From: a virus
Length of the DNA: 64,000 nt
Virus record (IMG/VR): IMGVR_UViG_3300033153_015382
Coordinates: 1 to 64,000 of that record
Direction: 5' to 3' (one strand)
Below are positions 2,452-60,984 of this stretch, one piece after another; within the stretch, counting starts at the first letter, position 1; every line of letters begins with the position of its first letter. Both the position numbers and the translations under genes were made by a program. Under the pieces are notes generated by a model. It did not search any database. It had not been told where the DNA came from and worked only from the letters and a program-made list of their open reading frames with translations.

Positions 2452-3447
2452 ATGTTAGGTTTAGATGTAGGGACGTCTTATGTTATTGGGGCCAGGGAAA
2501 CTGACAAGGGGATAACTTATCGAGAGTTTCGGGACGCCTTTTTCAGGATTAAGCCCGCTACGCCCATAGCGGCCAAGATGATAGAGAAGGGTTTGAAAGG
2601 CACCAAATATTTTAAAGATTCGGATGGAAGTTTCGTTGTTATTGACAAGGAGGCTATTGTCAAGGCAGTTGAGAGGAACTCGTCGGCTCTAAGGCCTCTT
2701 GCTCGAGGGATTTTATCTCCCAAAGAGAGGGATGCTCGCAGGGTATTCAAGTTCCTTTTGGGCAAATTACTAGGCAAGCCGAAAGAAAAGAAGGAAAAGC
2801 TTGTTTATTCGATTCCTGCGGCTCCGGCAGACGTATCCTCAGACGATTTCGATGTTGGATATCACTGCGATGCCATTGGGAACGATCTTAAGGAACTCGG
2901 TTTTGATCCCAGCCCCTTAAATGAGGCAGAGGCAATTTGTTATGCAGAATTAGAAGAGGATGATTATACGGGCGTTTCTATTTCGGCAGGCGCGGGAATG
3001 CAAAATGTTTGTGTCATGTCTTCTGGTGAGCCAGTATTAATATTTAGTCTAGCCAGGTCTGGAGATTATGTTGATCGTATGGCTGCGGCTTCTACAGCGG
3101 AACCGGATTCTGTTGTTCAAATGGAGAAGGAGGCTGGAGATTGGGAAGTGGGGAAGGAAAATGAGAATCGTATTTTGAGCGCTGTTTCCATATATTACGT
3201 CAGACTTATTAAATACGTAGTAGAAATGCTTTCGAAAAAGCTTAATTCAGCAGATGAACTTCCCAGGTTTCCTTCAGCGATACCAGTTGTTTTGTCTGGG
3301 GGAACTTCGCTAGCGAAGGGGTACGTAGAGGAGTTTAAAAAGCAGTTGGCCCCGGTTGATTTGCCGTTCGAAGTCAAGGAAGTTCGTCACGCTAAGGAGC
3401 CCCTTAGGGCTGTCGCAAAAGGCTGCTTAATCGCCGCGTCTTTATAG
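2452..3447 (+). CDS. Actin-like ATPase (ParM/MreB/Hsp70 fold)
   Basis: A 331-aa protein with the actin-superfamily nucleotide-binding pattern. Phosphate-1 loop is G-L-D-V-G-T-S at residues 3-9. A phosphate-2-like stretch is S-A-G-A-G-M near residue 180, and the adenosine motif L-S-G-G-T-S-L-A-K is near residue 282. Phage actin homologues form filaments that position DNA or replication machinery; plasmid ParM proteins segregate DNA. In phosphate-2 the usual D-x-G-x-G-T is S-x-G-A-G-M, so the catalytic Asp may be lost. Function is inferred from fold only. No DNA-binding adaptor partner is obvious next to it. Confidence 0.65.
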   Translation: MLGLDVGTSYVIGARETDKGITYREFRDAFFRIKPATPIAAKMIEKGLKGTKYFKDSDGSFVVIDKEAIVKAVERNSSALRPLARGILSPKERDARRVFKFLLGKLLGKPKEKKEKLVYSIPAAPADVSSDDFDVGYHCDAIGNDLKELGFDPSPLNEAEAICYAELEEDDYTGVSISAGAGMQNVCVMSSGEPVLIFSLARSGDYVDRMAAASTAEPDSVVQMEKEAGDWEVGKENENRILSAVSIYYVRLIKYVVEMLSKKLNSADELPRFPSAIPVVLSGGTSLAKGYVEEFKKQLAPVDLPFEVKEVRHAKEPLRAVAKGCLIAASL

Positions 3448-45886: not shown

Positions 45887-46183
45887 CTAATCTTGACCCT
45901 TGCCCCCGCTGTTGTTTTGGCCGCCACCGCTGCCAGAATTAGGTCTCTGTGGCTTGGGTGATTCAGGCCTAGTACTAGACGGAGGAGCTGAATTAACTCC
46001 TCCTTTCCTTATTTTACCCTCACTAAGTGGATCGTTTCTTTCTTTTCCATCTTCCATCAACCTGACCTCTTCTGGGTCCCCTCGGCCATCAGCAATGAGG
46101 TTTCGGGCCACATAAATGGCTCCTGGTTTACTCGCCGCCTTTACTTTTAGACGAAAGACTACTTCGTATTCCACTTTTTCCAT
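45887..46183 (-). CDS. Small protein with disordered Gly/Ser/Pro tail
   Basis: A 98-aa protein: the first 50 residues look folded (V-E-Y-E-V-V-F-R-L-K-V), then a Pro/Ser/Gly-rich disordered tail. It overlaps the previous gene by 56 nt, with AGGAG inside that gene. Function unknown. Confidence 0.5.
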   Translation of the reverse strand: MEKVEYEVVFRLKVKAASKPGAIYVARNLIADGRGDPEEVRLMEDGKERNDPLSEGKIRKGGVNSAPPSSTRPESPKPQRPNSGSGGGQNNSGGKGQD

Positions 46184-46484
46184 CTGTTTTCTCCTCTGAA
46201 ACTTCTTTAAGGTCCTCAGGCCACTTTTGATTCATCAGCAATCCCTGGGCCATCATAGCAAAACCGATACGCCCTGGCTTGGCATAGTACTCTTTCATGA
46301 CTTCGGACGCTGGCGGGGTTTTATCCTTATACCCCTCTATAGAGGCCCCTACGGCATAGATTAAATTACTCAAGACCAATATTAAATCTTCTACAGTGAG
46401 AGGGTTATCATGTAGTGCGTTGATTAGCTTGGCCAGGACTTGATCTCGATTTAGTCTCTTTTTTTTCTTCTTTTTCTTGCCCAT
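46128..46484 (-). CDS. Hypothetical Lys-rich phage protein
   Basis: A 118-aa protein starting with M-G followed by seven Lys and an Arg, then a helical domain (D-Q-V-L-A-K-L-I-N-A-L). Basic N-terminus suggests nucleic-acid contact. No family recognised. Confidence 0.5.
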   Translation of the reverse strand: MGKKKKKKKRLNRDQVLAKLINALHDNPLTVEDLILVLSNLIYAVGASIEGYKDKTPPASEVMKEYYAKPGRIGFAMMAQGLLMNQKWPEDLKEVSEEKTDGKSGIRSSLSSKSKGGE

Positions 46485-48860: not shown

Positions 48861-48944
48861 CTATCTCCTACAAGTGCCGTTTTTCGAATCTTTTGTTTCA
48901 TCAGTAAATTCATATTTGTCTAAGTTGAATAGTTTCAATTGCAT
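48861..48944 (-). CDS. 27-aa upstream ORF (copied N-terminal cassette)
   Basis: Starts M-Q-L-K-L-F-N-L-D-K-Y-E-F-T-D-E-T, the N-terminus of the hexapeptide-repeat proteins, then stops after ten unrelated residues, 4 nt before ATG 48856. The stop region holds the ribosome binding site of the next gene, as in translational coupling. Either a leader peptide or a remnant of a third repeat gene. Confidence 0.5.
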   Translation of the reverse strand: MQLKLFNLDKYEFTDETKDSKNGTCRR

Positions 48945-49636
48945 ATTTCACCTTCTGTGTACATACCGGTAAACACACAAGCACCGCCATATATCCATGC
49001 ATAACCAGATACTTGAGCGTTACCAAATACTTGAGCGTTACCATATACCCATGCATCACCATGTACATGAACATCATCATGTACCCGAGCATCACCAAAT
49101 ACTTGAGCATAACCATGTACCCATGCACTACCATATATATAAGCACCACCAGATACACGAGCATTATCGCATACGCGAGCATTACCGTATACGTGAGCAT
49201 CACCAAATACTCGAGCATTACCAGACACATGAGCATTATCGCATACGCGAGCATTACCGTATACGTGAGCATCACCAAATACTCGAGCATTACCAGACAC
49301 ATAAGCATTATCGCATACACGGGCATTACCATATACGTGAGCATCACCATATACTTGAGCATTACCAGACACATAAGCATTATCGCCATTACCATATACG
49401 TGAGCATCACCATATACTTGAGCATTACCAGACACATAAGCATTATCGCCGATCCAACAGTCACCCTCCTGGCTCAGATTGGCTCCCGACTTAATGAAAC
49501 CACCAAGATCACCTGCTTTGACGTCATACCTGGAGATGTCTCGCAAGGCACGGATACGGTGAAGTATATGGCCATGACGGTCAATCGTTTCATTAGTAAG
49601 TTCATATTTGTCTAAGTCGAATAGTTTCAATTGCAT
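48935..49636 (-). CDS. Hexapeptide-repeat (left-handed beta-helix) protein 1
   Basis: A 233-aa protein. About 80 N-terminal residues (M-Q-L-K-L-F-D-L-D-K-Y-E-L-T ... G-D-L-G-G) precede about 23 six-residue repeats of the form G-N-A-x-V-x or G-D-A-H-V-Y, each 18 bp at DNA level. Such phage beta-helix proteins resemble sugar acyltransferase coils, but no catalytic His is apparent. A tandem paralogue lies immediately upstream. The C-terminus (G-E-I-C-N) is in a different frame from the paralogue's homologous end. Function unknown. Confidence 0.65.
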   Translation of the reverse strand: MQLKLFDLDKYELTNETIDRHGHILHRIRALRDISRYDVKAGDLGGFIKSGANLSQEGDCWIGDNAYVSGNAQVYGDAHVYGNGDNAYVSGNAQVYGDAHVYGNARVCDNAYVSGNARVFGDAHVYGNARVCDNAHVSGNARVFGDAHVYGNARVCDNARVSGGAYIYGSAWVHGYAQVFGDARVHDDVHVHGDAWVYGNAQVFGNAQVSGYAWIYGGACVFTGMYTEGEICN

Positions 49637-50198
49637 ATTTCACCTTCTGCGTACATACCGCATAACCAGACACTTGAGCGCTACCAGATACTTGAGCATT
49701 ATCAGATACTTGAGCGTTACCAGATACCCATGCATCACCATGTACATGAACATCATCATGTACCCAAGCATCACCAAATACTTGAGCATTACCATGTACC
49801 CATGCATCACCATGTACATGAGCATCACCAGATACACGAGCATTATTGTATACGCGAACATTATCACATACCCAAGCATAACCAAATATCCATGCATCAC
49901 CATATACTTGAGCGTTACCAGATGCACAAGCACCACCAGATACACGAGCATTACCAAATACATGAGCATTACCAAATACATGAGCATTACCATATACTTG
50001 AGCATTATCGCCGATCCAACAGTCACCCTCCTGACTCAGATTGGCTTCTGACTCAATGTAACCACCTAGATCACCCGTTTTGACGTCATGCCCGGAAATG
50101 CTACGCAAGGCACGGATACGGTGAAGTATATGGCCATAATGAACAACTGTTTCATCAGTAAGCTCGTATTTGTTTGAGTTGAATGGCTTTAATTGCAT
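49602..50198 (-). CDS. Hexapeptide-repeat (left-handed beta-helix) protein 2
   Basis: A 198-aa tandem paralogue of the previous gene, starting M-Q-L-K-P-F-N-S-N-K-Y-E-L-T. An in-frame TTG at 50312 would add 38 residues, but the conserved start is ATG 50198. Hexapeptide turns cover most of the protein. The shared 3' DNA is read here as A-V-C-T-Q-K-V-K-Y-A-I-E-T, a frame different from copy 1, showing that the repeat array has shifted frame in one copy. Overlaps copy 1 by 35 nt. Confidence 0.65.
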   Translation of the reverse strand: MQLKPFNSNKYELTDETVVHYGHILHRIRALRSISGHDVKTGDLGGYIESEANLSQEGDCWIGDNAQVYGNAHVFGNAHVFGNARVSGGACASGNAQVYGDAWIFGYAWVCDNVRVYNNARVSGDAHVHGDAWVHGNAQVFGDAWVHDDVHVHGDAWVSGNAQVSDNAQVSGSAQVSGYAVCTQKVKYAIETIRLRQI

Positions 50199-51562: not shown

Positions 51563-51933
51563 TGCCAGCTCCGCATTTCTTCTGCAGTAAATTTTTGAGG
51601 ACACCTTATATACCCATAGGTATTCCAAGTTTTCTTTGAGCGACCTTTTGTGGGCAAAAGTTTGAGATGCCAAACTCCAGCAATTTTTATAAAAGTTTTT
51701 GGTCTTTGGCGTCCCCTTTCGGGAGAGACCAAAGTGCAATAGTGTTGTCTACCAGAATCAGTAAACGGATTACGGCAGAGAATCATTTCTCGAAGATATA
51801 TCTTCGTCGGCCTTTTTTGAGACACTCGATAAAAGAGCCAACTATAGGCAATTGAATGAACAAGGTCTCCGACTTCTACGTCTTCAGGCTCAACGAGTTC
51901 TCCTGGAATCTTGAAAAGCCTCAATTGGCGCAT
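51535..51933 (-). CDS. Hypothetical basic protein
   Basis: A 132-aa protein from ATG 51933 overlapping the ribonucleotide reductase stop. Basic, with G-D-L-V-H-S-I-A near residue 25 and several Arg/Lys-rich stretches. No family recognised. Overlaps the RNA ligase start by 28 nt. Confidence 0.5.
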   Translation of the reverse strand: MRQLRLFKIPGELVEPEDVEVGDLVHSIAYSWLFYRVSQKRPTKIYLREMILCRNPFTDSGRQHYCTLVSPERGRQRPKTFIKIAGVWHLKLLPTKGRSKKTWNTYGYIRCPQKFTAEEMRSWQCHFQNTRQ

Positions 51934-54900
51934 CAAGAGCATCCTTCTGAGAAACCGCAGCCACCACAACACCTGCAAGACCCCGTAGTCACCATCTGTG
52001 AACCGCATTCCGGACAGATTCCAGTTGTCCCCGCATTAAGTATCCCAGGGCCGCCAGGAACCCCAGAAGCATCATTGCTAGAGCCGCTGAGACCATTATT
52101 ATTGTCCAAACTGTCATTTTTACCTTTTTCATTTTTGCCTCCAAAATTCAATAGAAGCCAATTGAAGATATAATCCACTATCGAAGTCGCAGATCTAATA
52201 TCGGGGTCTCCGGTGAATCCAGCAGGCTCGAATCTCATTCCTTTCATTTTTCGAGCCATCTCCTTTAAGGGAACTCCATATTGAAGGGCTATGGATACTA
52301 TAATAGAGAAAGCGTTCATTAAGCCACCTAGAGTTGACCCTTCTTTGCTAATTGAGACAAAAACCTCCCCCAGCCTGCCATCTTCATACATGCCAGCAGT
52401 AATGTAGCCAGCATGATTTCCCACTTTAAACTTATGGGTAAAAGATTTTCTGACCCGAGGTAGCCTTTTTCTTTTGGCCTCTGGGGGGGCAGGGGAGCTG
52501 GCAAGAAAACATTCATCTTGAATTTCTTTGCGTGTCTGATTTGCAACTGCGTCTAGGATATTAAAATTGGCCCTTAGTATTTTCTTGGCCAAATCTCCCG
52601 TTTTTTTACCGGCTTCTTCGCCGACCTCCAAAGGTTGACTGGCCTTTGAGCCATCTCTGTAGACGGTCACAGATTTAAGGCCCATTTTCCAGGCATCCAC
52701 AAATATTCGTCGGATATCTCGGGGGCGAACATTATTGGGCAAGTTTATGGTCTTGCTGATCCCTCCACTTATATATGGCTGGATAGCTTTCATCATTTCT
52801 AGGTGCTTGCTGGGCAGAAGAGGATTTGGACCTATAGCTGTTTGAGATAATTCTCCGTACTGGTCTTGTTCGTGTATTTTCGCCTTTTTGACACAATCCA
52901 GTTCTTTTTCAATTACCGTACCGTCCATTAGAGTCCGCTTGATCGAGGGAGCAAATACAGGCTCAATCCCCGTTGATTCACAGTCCATCAAGAATGAAAC
53001 CGAACCAGTTGGCATGCAGGTGGTTACCTGAGTATTTCGAGGCAAAATACTTCCTCCGTGTATTACTGAGTCCCAGATTGTAACAGCTCTTTCTACTAGC
53101 TTTTCTTGTCTTTTGGTAAAGGAGTCGTTACTTTTAGCTTTAAGCAGCTGCGCCGCGTGCATCTCTAGAACTTCTCGAAGGGCACTATCCGGCTCACACT
53201 CCCTTCCAAGTTTGCCAGCTAATTCAACAGAGACTTCGTAAGCAGCTCCCGTCAGAAAAGACATCAGAACAGACGTTCGGTTTCGGCCGCTTTCATGTCC
53301 ATAAGGCAATCCCTCCTGCATCAGATAGGCGCCGAGATTAGTTATCCCCAGCCCTAGAGGTCGATACTTAATGGAATTAGCAGCAATTTCATCAGTAGGA
53401 TAGTCAGCATTTCCACAAATAATATCCATTGCAGTTATAAGAACGCGGATTATGTGGTAGAAAGTGTTTATAAAATCAAGATCATCGGGAAATAGCTGCT
53501 TTAATTTTAGAATATTAATTGCGGCCAGGTTGCAAGCACTATTCTCACAAAATACGATCTCTCCACAATTTGAAGCGACTACTCCGCCCGTCCAATATCG
53601 GTGTTTTTCGTTTAAAACCGTGATATCAAAGACCTCTTTTTCTCCAAGAAACTCTCGATTTTTAATGAAGTATTCTGCTTTTCTGGGCCATCCGCCTTTT
53701 TCTACGTCACAGACATTCAAGAGTCTTTCCTGTTTGCAAGGGTGAATAAATCCAATAAGATCTCTAAACTTTTCTTTATCTCTGCCTATATTCAGTTCAT
53801 AATTTCTTTCATTGGTATGAGTCCCATTTTTAAATTTAATTTTAGTCAGATTAGGCATCGTCCAGTAGGACCCTATTCCGAGAGAAGAAAGCATCAATTG
53901 AACCTGCTGGACAACGGTAAAACTAGTCACTCTTAGAGAGATTCTTCCATTTTTAAGGACGCTCCCATTTGCGGAAAAGAGACCTCGCAAAAAGGCTCGT
54001 TTGATTTTTGGTGGCGCGAAAAAGTATCTGTCTGGAATACTTCTATTGTAGGCTAGAGGTAATTCAGGCTCGGTCAGGGAGGTTTCTATGAGGTAAAAGG
54101 TTTCCCCGATCCCCGGTTGATGCTTTATAATGAGGGGTCCTACATCCCTATCGTCAAAATAACAACGATCTTTATTCCCTATATGTAGCCCAACTAAATT
54201 ATTCGAGGCCCCGTATGCGCTTCCGCCTCCTTGAACTAGTCCATCCATTATATATTTTCCATGACCATTTTGTACTATATCATTTAGTTCGCCCGGCATG
54301 TCCGGGCCTCGGGCAGTATCCATTGCATTTGCTTTTCCTACAGCTCTCCAATTCCCCTTTTCGACGATTAAATGGTCGTCTGTCCCAAGAAAGTGACCAG
54401 CCGCACTGTCAAATCGATAGACGGGTTTGAGCCCCCTAGATACCTTTCTAACAACCGAAGTAAATTTTTCTCCAGTCCATATTTTGTCTCCAACTTTAAC
54501 GTGTCCCATTGTAGTAAGCACCGGAACATTTTCAACGAGCTTTATTAAACTAGCCTCGGCGGGCTGACAAGCATTACAGCTATTAATTGTCATTGAGCTT
54601 TTACAAGTATTCCATTTGTTAACATTATCCACAAAGAATAGACCTGGATCTCCGCATTTCCAAGCAGCCTTAGCCATCTTATCAAGTAAGTCACTCGCAG
54701 GTCGAACATCAACAGGAAGCGAGTCTTCTTCAGTTGCTCTTTTCATAAAGTCATCTGTCACAGAAACGGAATGATTGGTATTCTGGAAAGCAGCAGTGCC
54801 TACTGCTTCTCCGTTCATCCCACCCGAAAAACCGGCTTTAATTAATGCTTTCACCTTATCTTCTTCCCTAGCCTTGCATTCTATAAATTCCTCTATGTCA

Positions 54901-55514
54901 GGATGATCAACATTTAGCATTGCCAAGCGGGCGGCCCTACGAGTCGAACCTCCTTGTTTAATGGACCCGGCTACGGCATCTAGGGACTTGAGGAACGACA
55001 TAACCCCGCTAGACGTTCCTCCCCCAGACAGAGACTCACCTTTTCCTCTTAGACTGGAGTAGTTGCACCCAGTGCCTGAGCCTTTTTTGAATATCATCCC
55101 CTCTTTTTTGGCATGGTCTAATATTGACTCCATGGAGTCTTTAACGTCTAGTATAAAACATGCCGAGGCTTGCTGGTTTCTCTCAGAACGGCCTAAGTTA
55201 AATAACACCGGGCTATTGAAACTCGCTATTTGACTAGCCATTATCGAAATAAGCTCTTTTTCAAAGATAGCTGAATGACTTTGGTTAGCGAAATAGTCGT
55301 CTTTCTGTCCCCACTCGGTTATTTGTTTTGCTATACGGGTAAATACTTGTAGAGCTGAAGTCTCGTCTGGTGCCATATACTTGGAAATCATTACTCTGGC
55401 TGCTGTATCAGACCATCCTTCAGGTATTTCATATTCCTTATTCTGGAATTTCACTTTCCTGGTCTTGACTCCAGACGAGAATAACCTGAATTGAATCAAC
55501 GAATTAAATATCAT
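51933..55514 (-). CDS. nrdJ: Class II (B12-dependent) ribonucleotide reductase with intein
   Basis: A 1193-aa precursor; exteins total about 859 aa. Features: S-G-T-G-C-N-Y-S-S-L, G-G-S-T-R-R-A-A-R (phosphate binding), C-G-E-I after the intein and C-N-L-A-A-I-N (active-site region). The C-terminal tail is Cys-rich (C-P-E-C-G ... C-R-C-C-G-G-C-G), typical of class II NrdJ. It reduces ribonucleotides using adenosylcobalamin, so no separate small subunit is needed. Ribosome binding site GGAGC lies 6 nt before ATG 55514. Confidence 0.88.
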   Translation of the reverse strand: MIFNSLIQFRLFSSGVKTRKVKFQNKEYEIPEGWSDTAARVMISKYMAPDETSALQVFTRIAKQITEWGQKDDYFANQSHSAIFEKELISIMASQIASFNSPVLFNLGRSERNQQASACFILDVKDSMESILDHAKKEGMIFKKGSGTGCNYSSLRGKGESLSGGGTSSGVMSFLKSLDAVAGSIKQGGSTRRAARLAMLNVDHPDIEEFIECKAREEDKVKALIKAGFSGGMNGEAVGTAAFQNTNHSVSVTDDFMKRATEEDSLPVDVRPASDLLDKMAKAAWKCGDPGLFFVDNVNKWNTCKSSMTINSCNACQPAEASLIKLVENVPVLTTMGHVKVGDKIWTGEKFTSVVRKVSRGLKPVYRFDSAAGHFLGTDDHLIVEKGNWRAVGKANAMDTARGPDMPGELNDIVQNGHGKYIMDGLVQGGGSAYGASNNLVGLHIGNKDRCYFDDRDVGPLIIKHQPGIGETFYLIETSLTEPELPLAYNRSIPDRYFFAPPKIKRAFLRGLFSANGSVLKNGRISLRVTSFTVVQQVQLMLSSLGIGSYWTMPNLTKIKFKNGTHTNERNYELNIGRDKEKFRDLIGFIHPCKQERLLNVCDVEKGGWPRKAEYFIKNREFLGEKEVFDITVLNEKHRYWTGGVVASNCGEIVFCENSACNLAAINILKLKQLFPDDLDFINTFYHIIRVLITAMDIICGNADYPTDEIAANSIKYRPLGLGITNLGAYLMQEGLPYGHESGRNRTSVLMSFLTGAAYEVSVELAGKLGRECEPDSALREVLEMHAAQLLKAKSNDSFTKRQEKLVERAVTIWDSVIHGGSILPRNTQVTTCMPTGSVSFLMDCESTGIEPVFAPSIKRTLMDGTVIEKELDCVKKAKIHEQDQYGELSQTAIGPNPLLPSKHLEMMKAIQPYISGGISKTINLPNNVRPRDIRRIFVDAWKMGLKSVTVYRDGSKASQPLEVGEEAGKKTGDLAKKILRANFNILDAVANQTRKEIQDECFLASSPAPPEAKRKRLPRVRKSFTHKFKVGNHAGYITAGMYEDGRLGEVFVSISKEGSTLGGLMNAFSIIVSIALQYGVPLKEMARKMKGMRFEPAGFTGDPDIRSATSIVDYIFNWLLLNFGGKNEKGKNDSLDNNNGLSGSSNDASGVPGGPGILNAGTTGICPECGSQMVTTGSCRCCGGCGFSEGCS
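53568..54569 (-). other. LAGLIDADG-type intein in the ribonucleotide reductase
   Basis: Residues C316-N649 (334 aa). Start C-Q-P-A-E-A-S-L, then V-G-D-K-I-W; block B G-T-D-D-H; endonuclease motif F-L-R-G-L-F-S-A-N-G-S, with the Asp position replaced by Asn. The end is V-V-A-S-N followed by Cys (C-G-E-I). Penultimate residue is Ser rather than His. The site between C-N-A and C-G-E-I is near the catalytic pocket, so splicing is needed for activity. Confidence 0.88.
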
Positions 55515-56472: not shown

Positions 56473-56495
56473 TTTCTTCACCTCATGACTCAAAC

Positions 56496-56556
56496 CAAAA
56501 GGCCTCGGGGGGGGCACCTTAGGTATTGGAAGGTTCCCGGATACCCCGAAGCCTTT
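56496..56556 (-). terminator. Rho-independent terminator before thyX
   Basis: Minus strand: AAAGGCTTCGGGG (56556-56544) pairs with CCCCGAGGCCTTT (56510-56498), 13 bp with one G-U, followed by T4. The loop itself can fold through GGTAT/ATACC. It ends transcription of the 56648-60984 block. Confidence 0.7.
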
Positions 56557-56563
56557 CGGTTTA

Positions 56564-56629
56564 AGTTCGAGAACGAGGACGTTCTCGAACTATTTCTGAA
56601 ATCGATCTCATTCCATCGATTTCAGAAAT
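56564..56629. repeat. Two adjacent perfect hairpins
   Basis: Hairpin 1: AGTTCGAGAACG (56564-56575), loop AGGA, complement 56580-56591 (12-bp arms). Hairpin 2 starts at the very next base: ATTTCTGAAATCGAT (56592-56606), 8-nt loop, complement 56615-56629 (15-bp arms). With the terminator at 56496-56556 they form three stacked hairpins in 134 nt. Too elaborate for a simple terminator; possibly a small RNA, RNase site or protein-binding site. Confidence 0.7.
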
Positions 56630-56647
56630 TAAAAAACAGGCTCTTTA

Positions 56648-56983
56648 TTACGACGATTCATCGTAAGTGGCAAAAGCATCACTTATTCTATAGGCTTTGA
56701 CCTTGCCTGTTAGTCGCTTGACGTTTAAATCTGACTTTGCTGTAATTTCTGTTCCTTCGCTGGGGATTATTATCTCATCTTCAATACTGATCTCTTGGGT
56801 CTCCTTAAGGCTGGGCACTTCTACATCTACCCAGCCTTCCTCTGTATCAAGGGCCACTATATCTGCTGCGATTCTTTTTTTGTTTACATATACAATCAGG
56901 TTAGAAAATCTGAGTCCATCTGGACTAACATATTCATCTATGCCAGGCGCATTTGGGTTAGAGGGAATTCGTTCAAGTCTCAT
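56648..56983 (-). CDS. Hypothetical phage protein
   Basis: A 111-aa protein, beta-rich first half (L-I-V-Y-V-N-K-K-R-I-A-A-D), acidic middle. Unknown function. Four-nt overlap with the next gene upstream; three strong hairpins follow its stop. Confidence 0.5.
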   Translation of the reverse strand: MRLERIPSNPNAPGIDEYVSPDGLRFSNLIVYVNKKRIAADIVALDTEEGWVDVEVPSLKETQEISIEDEIIIPSEGTEITAKSDLNVKRLTGKVKAYRISDAFATYDESS

Positions 56984-58405: not shown

Positions 58406-58837
58406 CTAGGTCCTAATGATTTTATCAGCTCGAGCCAAGATAGTATAAGTTTTTCCCAAAGAACCACACTCCGTCAATTCTTTTATCAGTCGAGTGGCAG
58501 ATTCTAACTGTTTTTTCTTCATATGTTCTTCTAGTTTTATCTTTGAATTAAGTCTGTTTTTGATGGTCCTTAGGCAGCCTAAATTATCTAGAGACTCCTC
58601 TAATTCTTGGTGGCGCGGAAAATTCCTTTTTATCTCCCAATCGATACCTAAGCAATCGTCCCCCTCTTTGTCGACCAAAAACAAAACTCGCATTAGAATA
58701 GATTTGGTGATAGGAAGAAAATCGGGCCACTTTCTGATCAAAAACAACGTTGTCGCCTTAACAGAGGAATTCGAGGTGACGGTCCGCTCGGGCTTAAAGC
58801 GCCTCTGAGATTTTTCGAGAAGTTCTAGCTGTTTCAT
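58406..58837 (-). CDS. Hypothetical protein downstream of the reverse transcriptase
   Basis: A 143-aa helical, basic protein starting M-K-Q-L-E-L-L-E-K-S-Q. Its start overlaps a 22-aa ORF that directly follows the reverse transcriptase gene, so it is probably in the same operon. No family recognised. Confidence 0.5.
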   Translation of the reverse strand: MKQLELLEKSQRRFKPERTVTSNSSVKATTLFLIRKWPDFLPITKSILMRVLFLVDKEGDDCLGIDWEIKRNFPRHQELEESLDNLGCLRTIKNRLNSKIKLEEHMKKKQLESATRLIKELTECGSLGKTYTILARADKIIRT

Positions 58838-58902
58838 CCGACTGTCCTCCAATCATCATCGAGATACAATGTTTCCTCCAGCTCTTTTTCAAAGGAACTC
58901 AT
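58834..58902 (-). CDS. 22-aa acidic ORF in the reverse transcriptase operon
   Basis: M-S-S-F-E-K-E-L-E-E-T-L-Y-L-D-D-D-W, then an ATGA overlap with the next gene. One nt separates its start from the reverse transcriptase stop. Too short to be sure of; it may serve only for coupling. Confidence 0.3.
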   Translation of the reverse strand: MSSFEKELEETLYLDDDWRTVG

Positions 58903-58903
58903 C

Positions 58904-59668
58904 TCAAAGAGACTTAATTGTCCGCCCATAGGCCGCCAATCCTTTCGCAGATAGATCACCTGGATTGAACTTCAGGTAATGTTCTGCGGCTCTTATTCGC
59001 CTTCTAAGGCCCCTAGAGGCCTGCAGATTCCCGTTCGCGATTTGTAGGCCAAGAATAACAGGTCGATCAGTTTTCATTGCATAGAAACGAGTTTTCTTAC
59101 TATTGATGTTAAAACCATTTCGTCTAACTATTCCTTCGATTTCATCTATGAAGCCCCAATTTCTTGATCCTTTAAAGGAGAATATTAGGTCGTCAACATA
59201 TCGAGAGTATTTAATTTGCCGGTCATGAACCATTCTTCCGCAGGCAAGAAGGCTTCTTATATCCGAATCGGTTTTTCGAAAAGCAATATCGGCCAGAATA
59301 GGTGAGGTCGGTGCTCCAGTAGGAAGGCGATTTTGGTAAAAGCATTGATCTAGATGGTTTTCAAGAAAGCTTTGAAGTTTTGGGGTTATTCCGATCTCTT
59401 GACGAAGATATTCAACGCTCCGTTTAAACTTTTCTCGCGTTACAGACGGGAAAAAGGATTTTACATCCATTTTAAGAATATAGTCGGCCCCCAGATGTCT
59501 TCTTAAGGCTCCGAAAACATCTCTTTCTGGATAAATTCCCCAACTTGAAATACTAATAGAGGTTTGATGCTGAAGTAATTTAACCCATTTCCTCTGTTTT
59601 CTCTTCAGGTCATCATCGGGGACCTGAATTTTCCTTCCAGAACTAAGTCTTTGATTAGAATAGGACAT
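58904..59668 (-). CDS. Retron-like reverse transcriptase
   Basis: A 254-aa reverse transcriptase. R-K-I-x-V-P near residue 12 and L-K-R-K-Q-R match the retron N-terminal motif; I-L-K-M-D-V-K-S-F-F carries catalytic D68; L-P-T-G-A-P-T-S-P lies at 115-123; the catalytic Y-V-D-D is at 157-160. The C-terminal segment I-L-G-L-Q-I-A-N-G then R-R-R-I-R-A matches the retron V-T-G-x-x-V-N region. Diversity-generating RTs have S-Q instead of S-P, so DGR is unlikely. No room for an msr-msd RNA exists directly upstream. Confidence 0.8.
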   Translation of the reverse strand: MSYSNQRLSSGRKIQVPDDDLKRKQRKWVKLLQHQTSISISSWGIYPERDVFGALRRHLGADYILKMDVKSFFPSVTREKFKRSVEYLRQEIGITPKLQSFLENHLDQCFYQNRLPTGAPTSPILADIAFRKTDSDIRSLLACGRMVHDRQIKYSRYVDDLIFSFKGSRNWGFIDEIEGIVRRNGFNINSKKTRFYAMKTDRPVILGLQIANGNLQASRGLRRRIRAAEHYLKFNPGDLSAKGLAAYGRTIKSL

Positions 59669-59670
59669 TT

Positions 59671-59838
59671 TTACTCTTCCACGAATTGTACGGCTTCGTG
59701 ATAAGTGTCGAATTTACAGGAAGAGACATTTTCTGGTACTTTTGCGTACCAGACACGGTTCTTAGCCCAAATTTCTCCCTTGATTTCCATTTTAGAATCT
59801 GCAAAAAAGAATCTTCCGCCTTGTTCAAACCAAAACAT
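59671..59838 (-). CDS. 55-aa protein coupled to the reverse transcriptase
   Basis: M-F-W-F-E-Q-G-G-R-F-F-F-A-D, beta-like with several aromatic residues, then a short helix at the end (Y-H-E-A-V-Q-F-V-E-E). Its stop lies 2 nt before the reverse transcriptase ATG; it starts 9 nt after the nucleotidyltransferase-like stop. Could be an accessory or specificity subunit of the cassette. Confidence 0.5.
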   Translation of the reverse strand: MFWFEQGGRFFFADSKMEIKGEIWAKNRVWYAKVPENVSSCKFDTYHEAVQFVEE

Positions 59839-59847
59839 TTTAAGCTC

Positions 59848-60615
59848 CTAGATCAAGCGTAAGCGCCAGCGCTTGATTATTGTATCGGCTCGTTTGATGA
59901 CATTTCTGGGGGGACCAGGAGGTAATTCGGACTTAAGCCAGGCCTTTTTGACGCGAGATTCAATTCTATTCAAATGCTCAAGAAACATTTCGAACATTAT
60001 CGGATTTGAAAAGTCAAATTCCCCTGTGAAAATTTTTCTATCAATGTCATTTCCAAATTCGGCGACCAGGGCCTTTTCGTCCCACTCGAAGTCTCCTTGC
60101 TTCAGTAGTTTCTCTGCCTGAAAAAGCGCCGTGAGAGCTCGCCGAGCCATCTTGGGGTTGGGCATTGAAAATGCTCTGGCTTTAAGCTGGAGACCAGATT
60201 TGCTTACCATATTAAGTAGCAGAGGGGTAAGCTCGAGCATCACATTTCGGTCTTCGTAGACAGTCGGCATAAAGACCAACTCGTAGCAACTCTGTGTTCC
60301 GCGAATCATCTCGTCTAAGAATCGCCACCATTCATAGGATTCAACAGACAGGTGAGCGTCACTTGCGGAATCTGTTGGCTCGAATGTAATATCGTAGTGT
60401 TTTACTGCGCTATCGGCCCAATCGTCTCGAAAGCGAGGATGAGCTAACAGTTCTTGAGATTCGATTATATGAATCCCTCGGATTTTATAGGGAGCGTCAA
60501 TGGGGAAGGTCTCCTGCGCCCTCTGGCCCACCAATACGTAGGCCAGAGGGATGCAGTGAGATGGTATTACTTCTGAAAGTAAGAACTCAACGATCCGGTC
60601 TTCATATTCGCGCAA
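59848..60615 (-). CDS. Degenerate RlaP-like nucleotidyltransferase
   Basis: A 255-aa protein resembling the RlaP (PF10127-type) nucleotidyltransferase family: V-G-Q-R-A-Q near residue 28, then Y-K-I-R-G-I-H-I where active members have D-Y-D-V-R-G-V, and Y-D-I-T-F near residue 74. The catalytic D-x-D appears replaced (Lys at one Asp), so activity is doubtful. It precedes the 55-aa protein and reverse transcriptase in one operon. Confidence 0.45.
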   Translation of the reverse strand: MREYEDRIVEFLLSEVIPSHCIPLAYVLVGQRAQETFPIDAPYKIRGIHIIESQELLAHPRFRDDWADSAVKHYDITFEPTDSASDAHLSVESYEWWRFLDEMIRGTQSCYELVFMPTVYEDRNVMLELTPLLLNMVSKSGLQLKARAFSMPNPKMARRALTALFQAEKLLKQGDFEWDEKALVAEFGNDIDRKIFTGEFDFSNPIMFEMFLEHLNRIESRVKKAWLKSELPPGPPRNVIKRADTIIKRWRLRLI

Positions 60616-60624
60616 GATTCTCTC

Positions 60625-60984
60625 CTACCAGGGATAATCTGTTTCCTCTTCGCCTTTTCCTTCGTTTGCGTCAGACGAGACAGAAGTTTCTGGAACACCA
60701 CTAGCCTCGCTTGTTAGGGCCGAGAACTTTCCCAGCACTACGTTGGTAACGGTCTGGAACATTTGCTCGTCCTTGATATAGACATCATTGTAGTATCTTT
60801 CTCCGCCTTCTCGACTCTTTCCCTTGTGAGATGGGAGAGATACGAAAAGACCGTTGGTCCCCTTGATGACCGAGCAAGATATTTGAATCTTGTTCGAGAG
60901 TACAAAGTGACCCCGTGCCTTCACATAGTCGTGGTCTATTTTTCGCAACACAACCTCTGTTACAAGCTCTTTCTTTTCTGTCAT
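60625..60984 (-). CDS. spoVG: SpoVG-like protein
   Basis: A 119-aa protein: V-T-E-V-V-L-R-K-I-D, then V-I-K-G-T-N-G-L-F-V-S-L-P-S and Y-Y-N-D-V-Y-I, the SpoVG core (G-x-x-G-L-F-V-x-M-P). SpoVG binds DNA or RNA as a site-specific regulator. The C-terminal 35 residues are an acidic extension. AGGAG lies 8 nt before ATG 60984. Confidence 0.75.
   Translation of the reverse strand: MTEKKELVTEVVLRKIDHDYVKARGHFVLSNKIQISCSVIKGTNGLFVSLPSHKGKSREGGERYYNDVYIKDEQMFQTVTNVVLGKFSALTSEASGVPETSVSSDANEGKGEEETDYPW

Follow-up and report, generated by a model that had tools for sequence, protein, structure and literature searches.

A retron-type reverse transcriptase without an upstream msr-msd in a phage replication operon

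Introduction

Retrons are usually viewed as bacterial defence modules in which the reverse transcriptase (RT) is there to make msDNA, and their template RNA, the msr-msd, normally lies just upstream of the RT gene. What a retron-type RT might do in a phage genome where that RNA is missing from its usual place is the question raised by bases 1-64,000 of the 69,985-bp IMG/VR virus record IMGVR_UViG_3300033153_015382, the whole stretch analysed here, which we call the window. An initial annotation of this DNA described a retron-like RT deep in a dense operon and proposed that its template RNA could lie elsewhere or within a coding region. Here we examine the identity of the RT, the DNA around it, and the related phages that carry an RT at the same locus.

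Results

The RT lies in a block of replication and nucleotide-metabolism genes

Beyond about 31.6 kb, and as far as the record extends, almost every gene is on the minus strand; these genes are densely packed and have good ribosome-binding sites. This block includes genes for DNA polymerase III alpha, class II ribonucleotide reductase, ThyX and Whirly-domain proteins, as well as RecA-like and HU-like genes that were assigned by inspection only. The RT had been placed 11 genes deep in a dense operon; the density stands, but the depth figure merely reflects the window edge, as same-strand genes reach the end of the 69,985-bp record. Of 50,697 phage records, none closely matched the part of the window from 40 to 64 kb, in a search whose tools may have missed near-identical records. 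Two genes of the block serve below as synteny anchors across the RT-bearing phage lineage:

45223-45927, minus strand: Whirly-domain protein (W57)
46128-46484, minus strand: 118-aa gene (W59), adjoining the Whirly gene

Several other features of the genome are recorded here in their own right. The class II ribonucleotide reductase gene (51933-55514, minus strand) contains an intein-like insert that interrupts it and has a LAGLIDADG domain, and the plus-strand sequence at 2452-3447 strongly matches the actin-like family Volactin (PF25216, 3e-58) and has a homologue in L101. Two sets of repeats with an 18-nt period, at 48900-50100 and at record positions 68900-69900, encode YdcK-type beta-solenoid (hexapeptide) proteins; a near-identical record, L106, stops at about the hexapeptide-repeat region. 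Six ORFs begin with MQLKLF, which contains the clamp-binding-like motif QLxLF (48944, 49636 and 55824, minus strand; record positions 68918, 69342 and 69903), mostly followed by LDKYEL(T/S). QLxLF-type motifs occur 8 times, including QLSLF at 58920 and 68481, compared with 1.0 in shuffled sequence.

The RT has retron affinity

58904-59668, minus strand: retron-type RT of 254 aa, with DVKSFFPS (motif A), LPTGAPTSP and YVDD

The RT ORF matches Pfam RVT_1 above the cut-off (2.5e-21), has no internal stop and coding-like codon usage, and keeps all catalytic residues, including an intact YVDD site. In PADLOC, its 25 best models are all retron RTs, led by RT_III-A (2e-40), and the 15 best matches in a PDB sequence search are likewise all retron RTs, with Ec86 first (about 2e-17). 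An AlphaFold2 model built with 27 relatives in the input reached a pLDDT of 92, and its 18 best PDB fold matches in Foldseek were again all retron RTs. For two UG-like control RTs, the top-ranking models were UG and other non-retron ones; a retron call is therefore not something that every RT receives. The RT showed weak profile overlap with Drt3a and group II models, which the retron models outranked by many orders of magnitude. All three kinds of search, by sequence, profile and fold, thus place the RT with retron RTs, as initially annotated. A single-sequence search of viral contigs gave no close relatives, and the nearest genome match, L002, proved to encode a UG-like RT and was set aside.

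The best profile, sequence and fold matches are the RTs of type II-A and III-A retrons (Ec86-like; PADLOC RT_III-A and RT_II-A; NCBIfam St85), which have in common with the window RT the FFPS, LPxGAPTSP and YxDD core and the fingers-palm-thumb fold. Unlike those RTs, the window RT carries ALRRH in place of NAxxH, ILG in place of the VTG triplet and a region Y that runs for about 48 aa past ILG, about half of the retron length; it scores 124.1 bits against the NCBIfam retron St85 model NF038233, under the cut-off of 235. It also lacks the N-terminal region of retron RTs, and its thumb is short. NAxxH and VTG are each present in 14 of 16 validated retron RTs, and region Y, of about 90 aa, directs a retron RT to its msr (PMC6868368). 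The window RT is thus eroded at NAxxH, VTG and region Y. Because the validated retron Ec48 lacks both the asparagine of NAxxH and the threonine of VTG (PMC6868368), we regard the motif loss as suggestive rather than as proof; the halved region Y strengthens the suggestion.

The usual place of the template RNA is occupied by a coding gene

The immediate neighbours of the RT are as follows:

60625-60984, minus strand: SpoVG-like gene (W83), common to the window and related phages L097 and L098
59848-60615, minus strand: degenerate RlaP-like nucleotidyltransferase homologue, 255 aa, with a homologue in related phage L098 (6234-7052)
59671-59838, minus strand: protein-coding gene of 55 aa directly upstream of the RT, with the Shine-Dalgarno sequence AGGAG at its start
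58835-58930, minus strand: putative coding ORF of 31 aa (or 22 aa, 58835-58903), overlapping the 3' end of the RT gene in another frame
58406-58837, minus strand: 143-aa gene downstream of the RT, with no known homologue in profile and viral searches

This arrangement agrees with the initial description, in which the RT starts 2 nt after a 55-aa gene and is followed by a 22-aa and a 143-aa gene. The 55-aa gene has a codon score of 0.18 per codon, matching in-frame controls (0.17; out-of-frame, -0.02), and it is therefore coding rather than a hidden RNA; tblastn in phages gave no match to it. The small downstream ORF contains the clamp-binding-like QLSLF, and its 31-aa reading begins within the RT gene. 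Profile searches found no known effector among the neighbours of the RT.

The description of the upstream gene as degenerate RlaP-like is fair but weak. The window protein has no Pfam RlaP match, and PF10127 was seen only in its homologue from the related phage, below the cut-off (E=0.011, 15.9 bits against 23). A structure model of the window protein was unusable (pLDDT 37), and no close relatives were found in a single-sequence search of viral contigs. In jumbo phages, RlaP and RNA ligases act together (PMC7824862).

The 202 nt that precede the RT gene (59669-59870) are no more stably folded than shuffled sequence (z=-0.78), Rfam has no match upstream of the RT, and no structured RNA bounded by a1/a2 repeats was found near it. 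Together with the coding 55-aa gene at this place, these results bear out the reported lack of an upstream msr-msd. Applied to retron-type RT loci, the same kind of scan gave z<=-5 within 260 nt upstream in 25 of 84, compared with 1 of 168 controls; it thus detects many msr-msd-type RNAs, though not all, and the fold scans used short windows and few shuffles.

Related phages carry an RT at the same locus, with and without upstream RNA

An IMG/VR profile search combined with synteny identified six divergent phages, found in IMG/VR only (L097, L098, L099, L100, L111 and L113), that have an RT upstream of genes shared with the window. The window RT, which is shorter at both ends, has 26-34% identity with these RTs, which are up to 44% identical among themselves; the related RTs are compact, and most have LPTG and Y[VLMI]DD. 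The anchors include one further gene, close downstream of the window RT:

56648-56983, minus strand: 111-aa gene (W74), kept downstream of the RT in the related phages

The order RT, W74, W59, Whirly is found in L098, L099, L111 and L113, and most of it in L097 and L100. W52-W55 are further shared genes, not every gene being present in every phage. The RT is therefore an old resident of this phage lineage, held at one locus in the early-gene block of at least seven phages. Literature searches turned up no description of the related RTs. No RT match was found in L106, whose Whirly gene is 100% identical, but in that record this gene is 3.7 kb away from the end of the contig, which makes the absence uninformative.

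In a tree rooted on a UG-like pair, a 35-member retron clade (94/90) leaves out the window RT and five of the related RTs but includes the sixth, from L111, on a long branch. Constraining the window RT and the five into one clade gave a log-likelihood 5.2 better than that of the free tree (AU p=0.63, not rejected). The window RT would so be basal or sister to the retron clade; its branch is long, and we are unsure of its exact position. The RT thus groups only halfway with a characterised family of known template: the retron RTs are its nearest, but it lies outside their main clade and has lost the diagnostic motifs.

The surroundings of the RT differ among these phages. Structured noncoding RNA lies directly upstream of it in L097 (z -5.7) and L100 (z -7.6), and since these two have it at the very place where the window has none, we consider the lack in the window meaningful. 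In L098, a structured gap (z -7.0) is found one gene further up, before a Zn-ribbon gene that precedes the RT. A Zn-ribbon-like gene, the RT and an HNH nuclease gene (Pfam HNH, 5e-14) form an overlapping trio in L098 (9935-11339), L099 (9911-11375) and L113 (6519-7911), which the window does not have; the Zn-ribbon-like gene is 48% identical between L099 and L113. In L113 it starts 10 nt past the previous gene and its end overlaps the RT, leaving no room for an msr-msd. The template RNA is thus absent from the usual place in the window, as in L113. Upstream of the RT, L099 and L113 encode an RtcB RNA ligase, and L098 and the window the RlaP-like homologue. Some of the related RTs, unlike the window RT, keep the retron motifs, as in L099 (NAEVH and VTG).

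Two observations concern RNA genes in RT-bearing phages. About ten tRNA genes lie upstream of the RT in L100 (1-8037), and tmRNA genes are present in two phages carrying retron-type RTs (L049, 6331-6736; L075, 6336-6789).

Strongly structured hairpin RNA between the 111-aa gene and thyX

56473-56647, minus strand: three-hairpin structured intergenic RNA between the 111-aa gene and thyX; candidate trans template or thyX leader

The hairpins initially proposed as a template, at 56496-56629, are real. The 175-nt gap that holds them folds at -84.1 kcal/mol (z -10.0; none of 200 shuffles as stable) into three successive stems (15, 12 and about 23 bp), the last ending just before thyX, and the most structured 150-nt stretches of the window, scanned on the operon strand only, start at 56501 and 56551 (z to -8.7). 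The element lies 2.3 kb and seven genes downstream of the RT, on the same strand, and occupies one of the operon's few noncoding gaps; an element placed by chance would be 2.7 kb or less from the RT about 8% of the time. The hairpin RNA has no a1/a2 repeats, no Rfam match and no similarity to RNAs of the related phages or of phages generally, and it shares only a chance-like five 12-mers with the rest of the record. Dense three-hairpin arrays had looked common to the window and L100, but across 75 RT loci (728 kb) 3 were seen upstream where 6.9 were expected, and the idea was dropped. The hairpins thus stand out in structure but show no RT-specific signal, and we regard them as a candidate template and, equally plausibly, as a thyX leader.

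Discussion

We tentatively favor the explanation that this phage lineage domesticated a retron-derived RT that, most likely, has no msr-msd dedicated to it. Put more fully, and with the same reserve, a retron-clade RT would have been inherited vertically in a phage replication and RNA-repair block and would have shed its msr-msd and RNA-recognition parts, using other templates or an RNA in trans. An ancestor of a deep tailed-phage lineage would have captured the RT, which would then have been domesticated in the early replication and nucleotide-metabolism operon. The window RT would no longer need a canonical self-priming msr-msd, would be translated together with early genes, and may act alone as a polymerase on the ends of RNA or DNA, in repair, end-joining or the copying of damaged RNA during infection. 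Possible partners are the RNA-repair-like neighbor (RlaP-like here, RtcB in L099 and L113) and the HNH nuclease of the related phages; a repair-type role is one that we infer from neighboring genes alone. An RNA may still be used, given the structured RNA immediately before the RT in L097 and L100 and the one a gene further up in L098. Speaking against domestication is the strongly structured RNA downstream in the same operon.

That RNA is central to the main rival of domestication, a working retron-like element whose template has moved, so that the three hairpins are reverse-transcribed in trans by the upstream RT. We think this unlikely, though worth serious weight. Their rank as the most structured element on the operon strand of the 64-kb window, their place in a scarce noncoding gap on the strand of the RT, and the structured RNAs before the RT in L100 and L097, which could have been relocated, all argue for it, but the hairpins lack a1/a2 repeats, similar RNAs in related and other phages and an Rfam match, abut the start of thyX, lie at a distance that chance would sometimes produce, and belong to a type of array that is not enriched upstream of phage RTs. 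The RT's reduced region Y also argues against it. Less probable again is an unrecognised msr-msd, inside a neighboring gene or very short and weakly structured, in a module that the phage would carry for defence or anti-defence. In some known retron cassettes, ORFs separate the msr-msd from the RT (PMC6868368), the structured gap of L098 is so placed, and a segment around 60451-60600 within the RlaP-like gene scored z -6.2; on refolding of 60400-60624, however, this segment gave only z -2.9 and was rejected, and the lack of an a1/a2-bounded RNA near the RT, the coding scores of the neighboring ORFs and the lack of a recognised effector-type gene beside it all count against such a module.

That the RT is a decaying, functionless retron remnant carried in the operon seems improbable: its shortening at both ends relative to the related RTs, its lost diagnostic motifs and its long branch would fit, but its catalytic residues and reading frame are intact, its fold is confident, its codon usage is coding-like, and an RT has been kept in seven divergent phages. 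Least probable is that it belongs to a diversity-generating retroelement (DGR), a group II intron or a UG/DRT-type system, readings that repeat, Rfam and profile searches do not support. The weak overlap with Drt3a and group II models is what speaks for them; the window shows no pair of template and variable repeats differing at adenines, the sole repeats found being paralogues of the hexapeptide-repeat genes, Rfam finds no group II ribozyme, and retron models rank first where the UG-like controls rank UG first. The LPTGAPTSP of the RT is, we take it, not a DGR motif.

The locus differs from type II-A and III-A retrons in having no upstream msr-msd, a1/a2 repeats or recognised effector, and in sitting among the replication genes of a phage. 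Complete retrons also occur in phage genomes, as in Vibrio phage 10N.261.55.B9_PE001, whose retron is annotated as I-A; these likewise have a retron-clade RT, but with annotated effector genes (there ATPase and PtuB), which the window does not have. That an RT can stand free of its ancestral RNA has a precedent in G2L4 RT, a domesticated RT that acts on DNA ends without its RNA (PMC12337344); it is group II intron-like, and so of a different RT family, and for the window RT a comparable repair role is only presumed. Probably, then, the window RT has taken on a different task or makes use of an RNA encoded elsewhere, and it is possibly a new RT system, as the initial annotation proposed.

In this lineage, RTs are kept at one position in phage replication operons, with upstream RNA in some relatives and without it in others, and they form a natural series from the intact L099 RT to the eroded window RT. 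If the favored reading is true, the lineage would show what a retron-type RT can do without an msr-msd.
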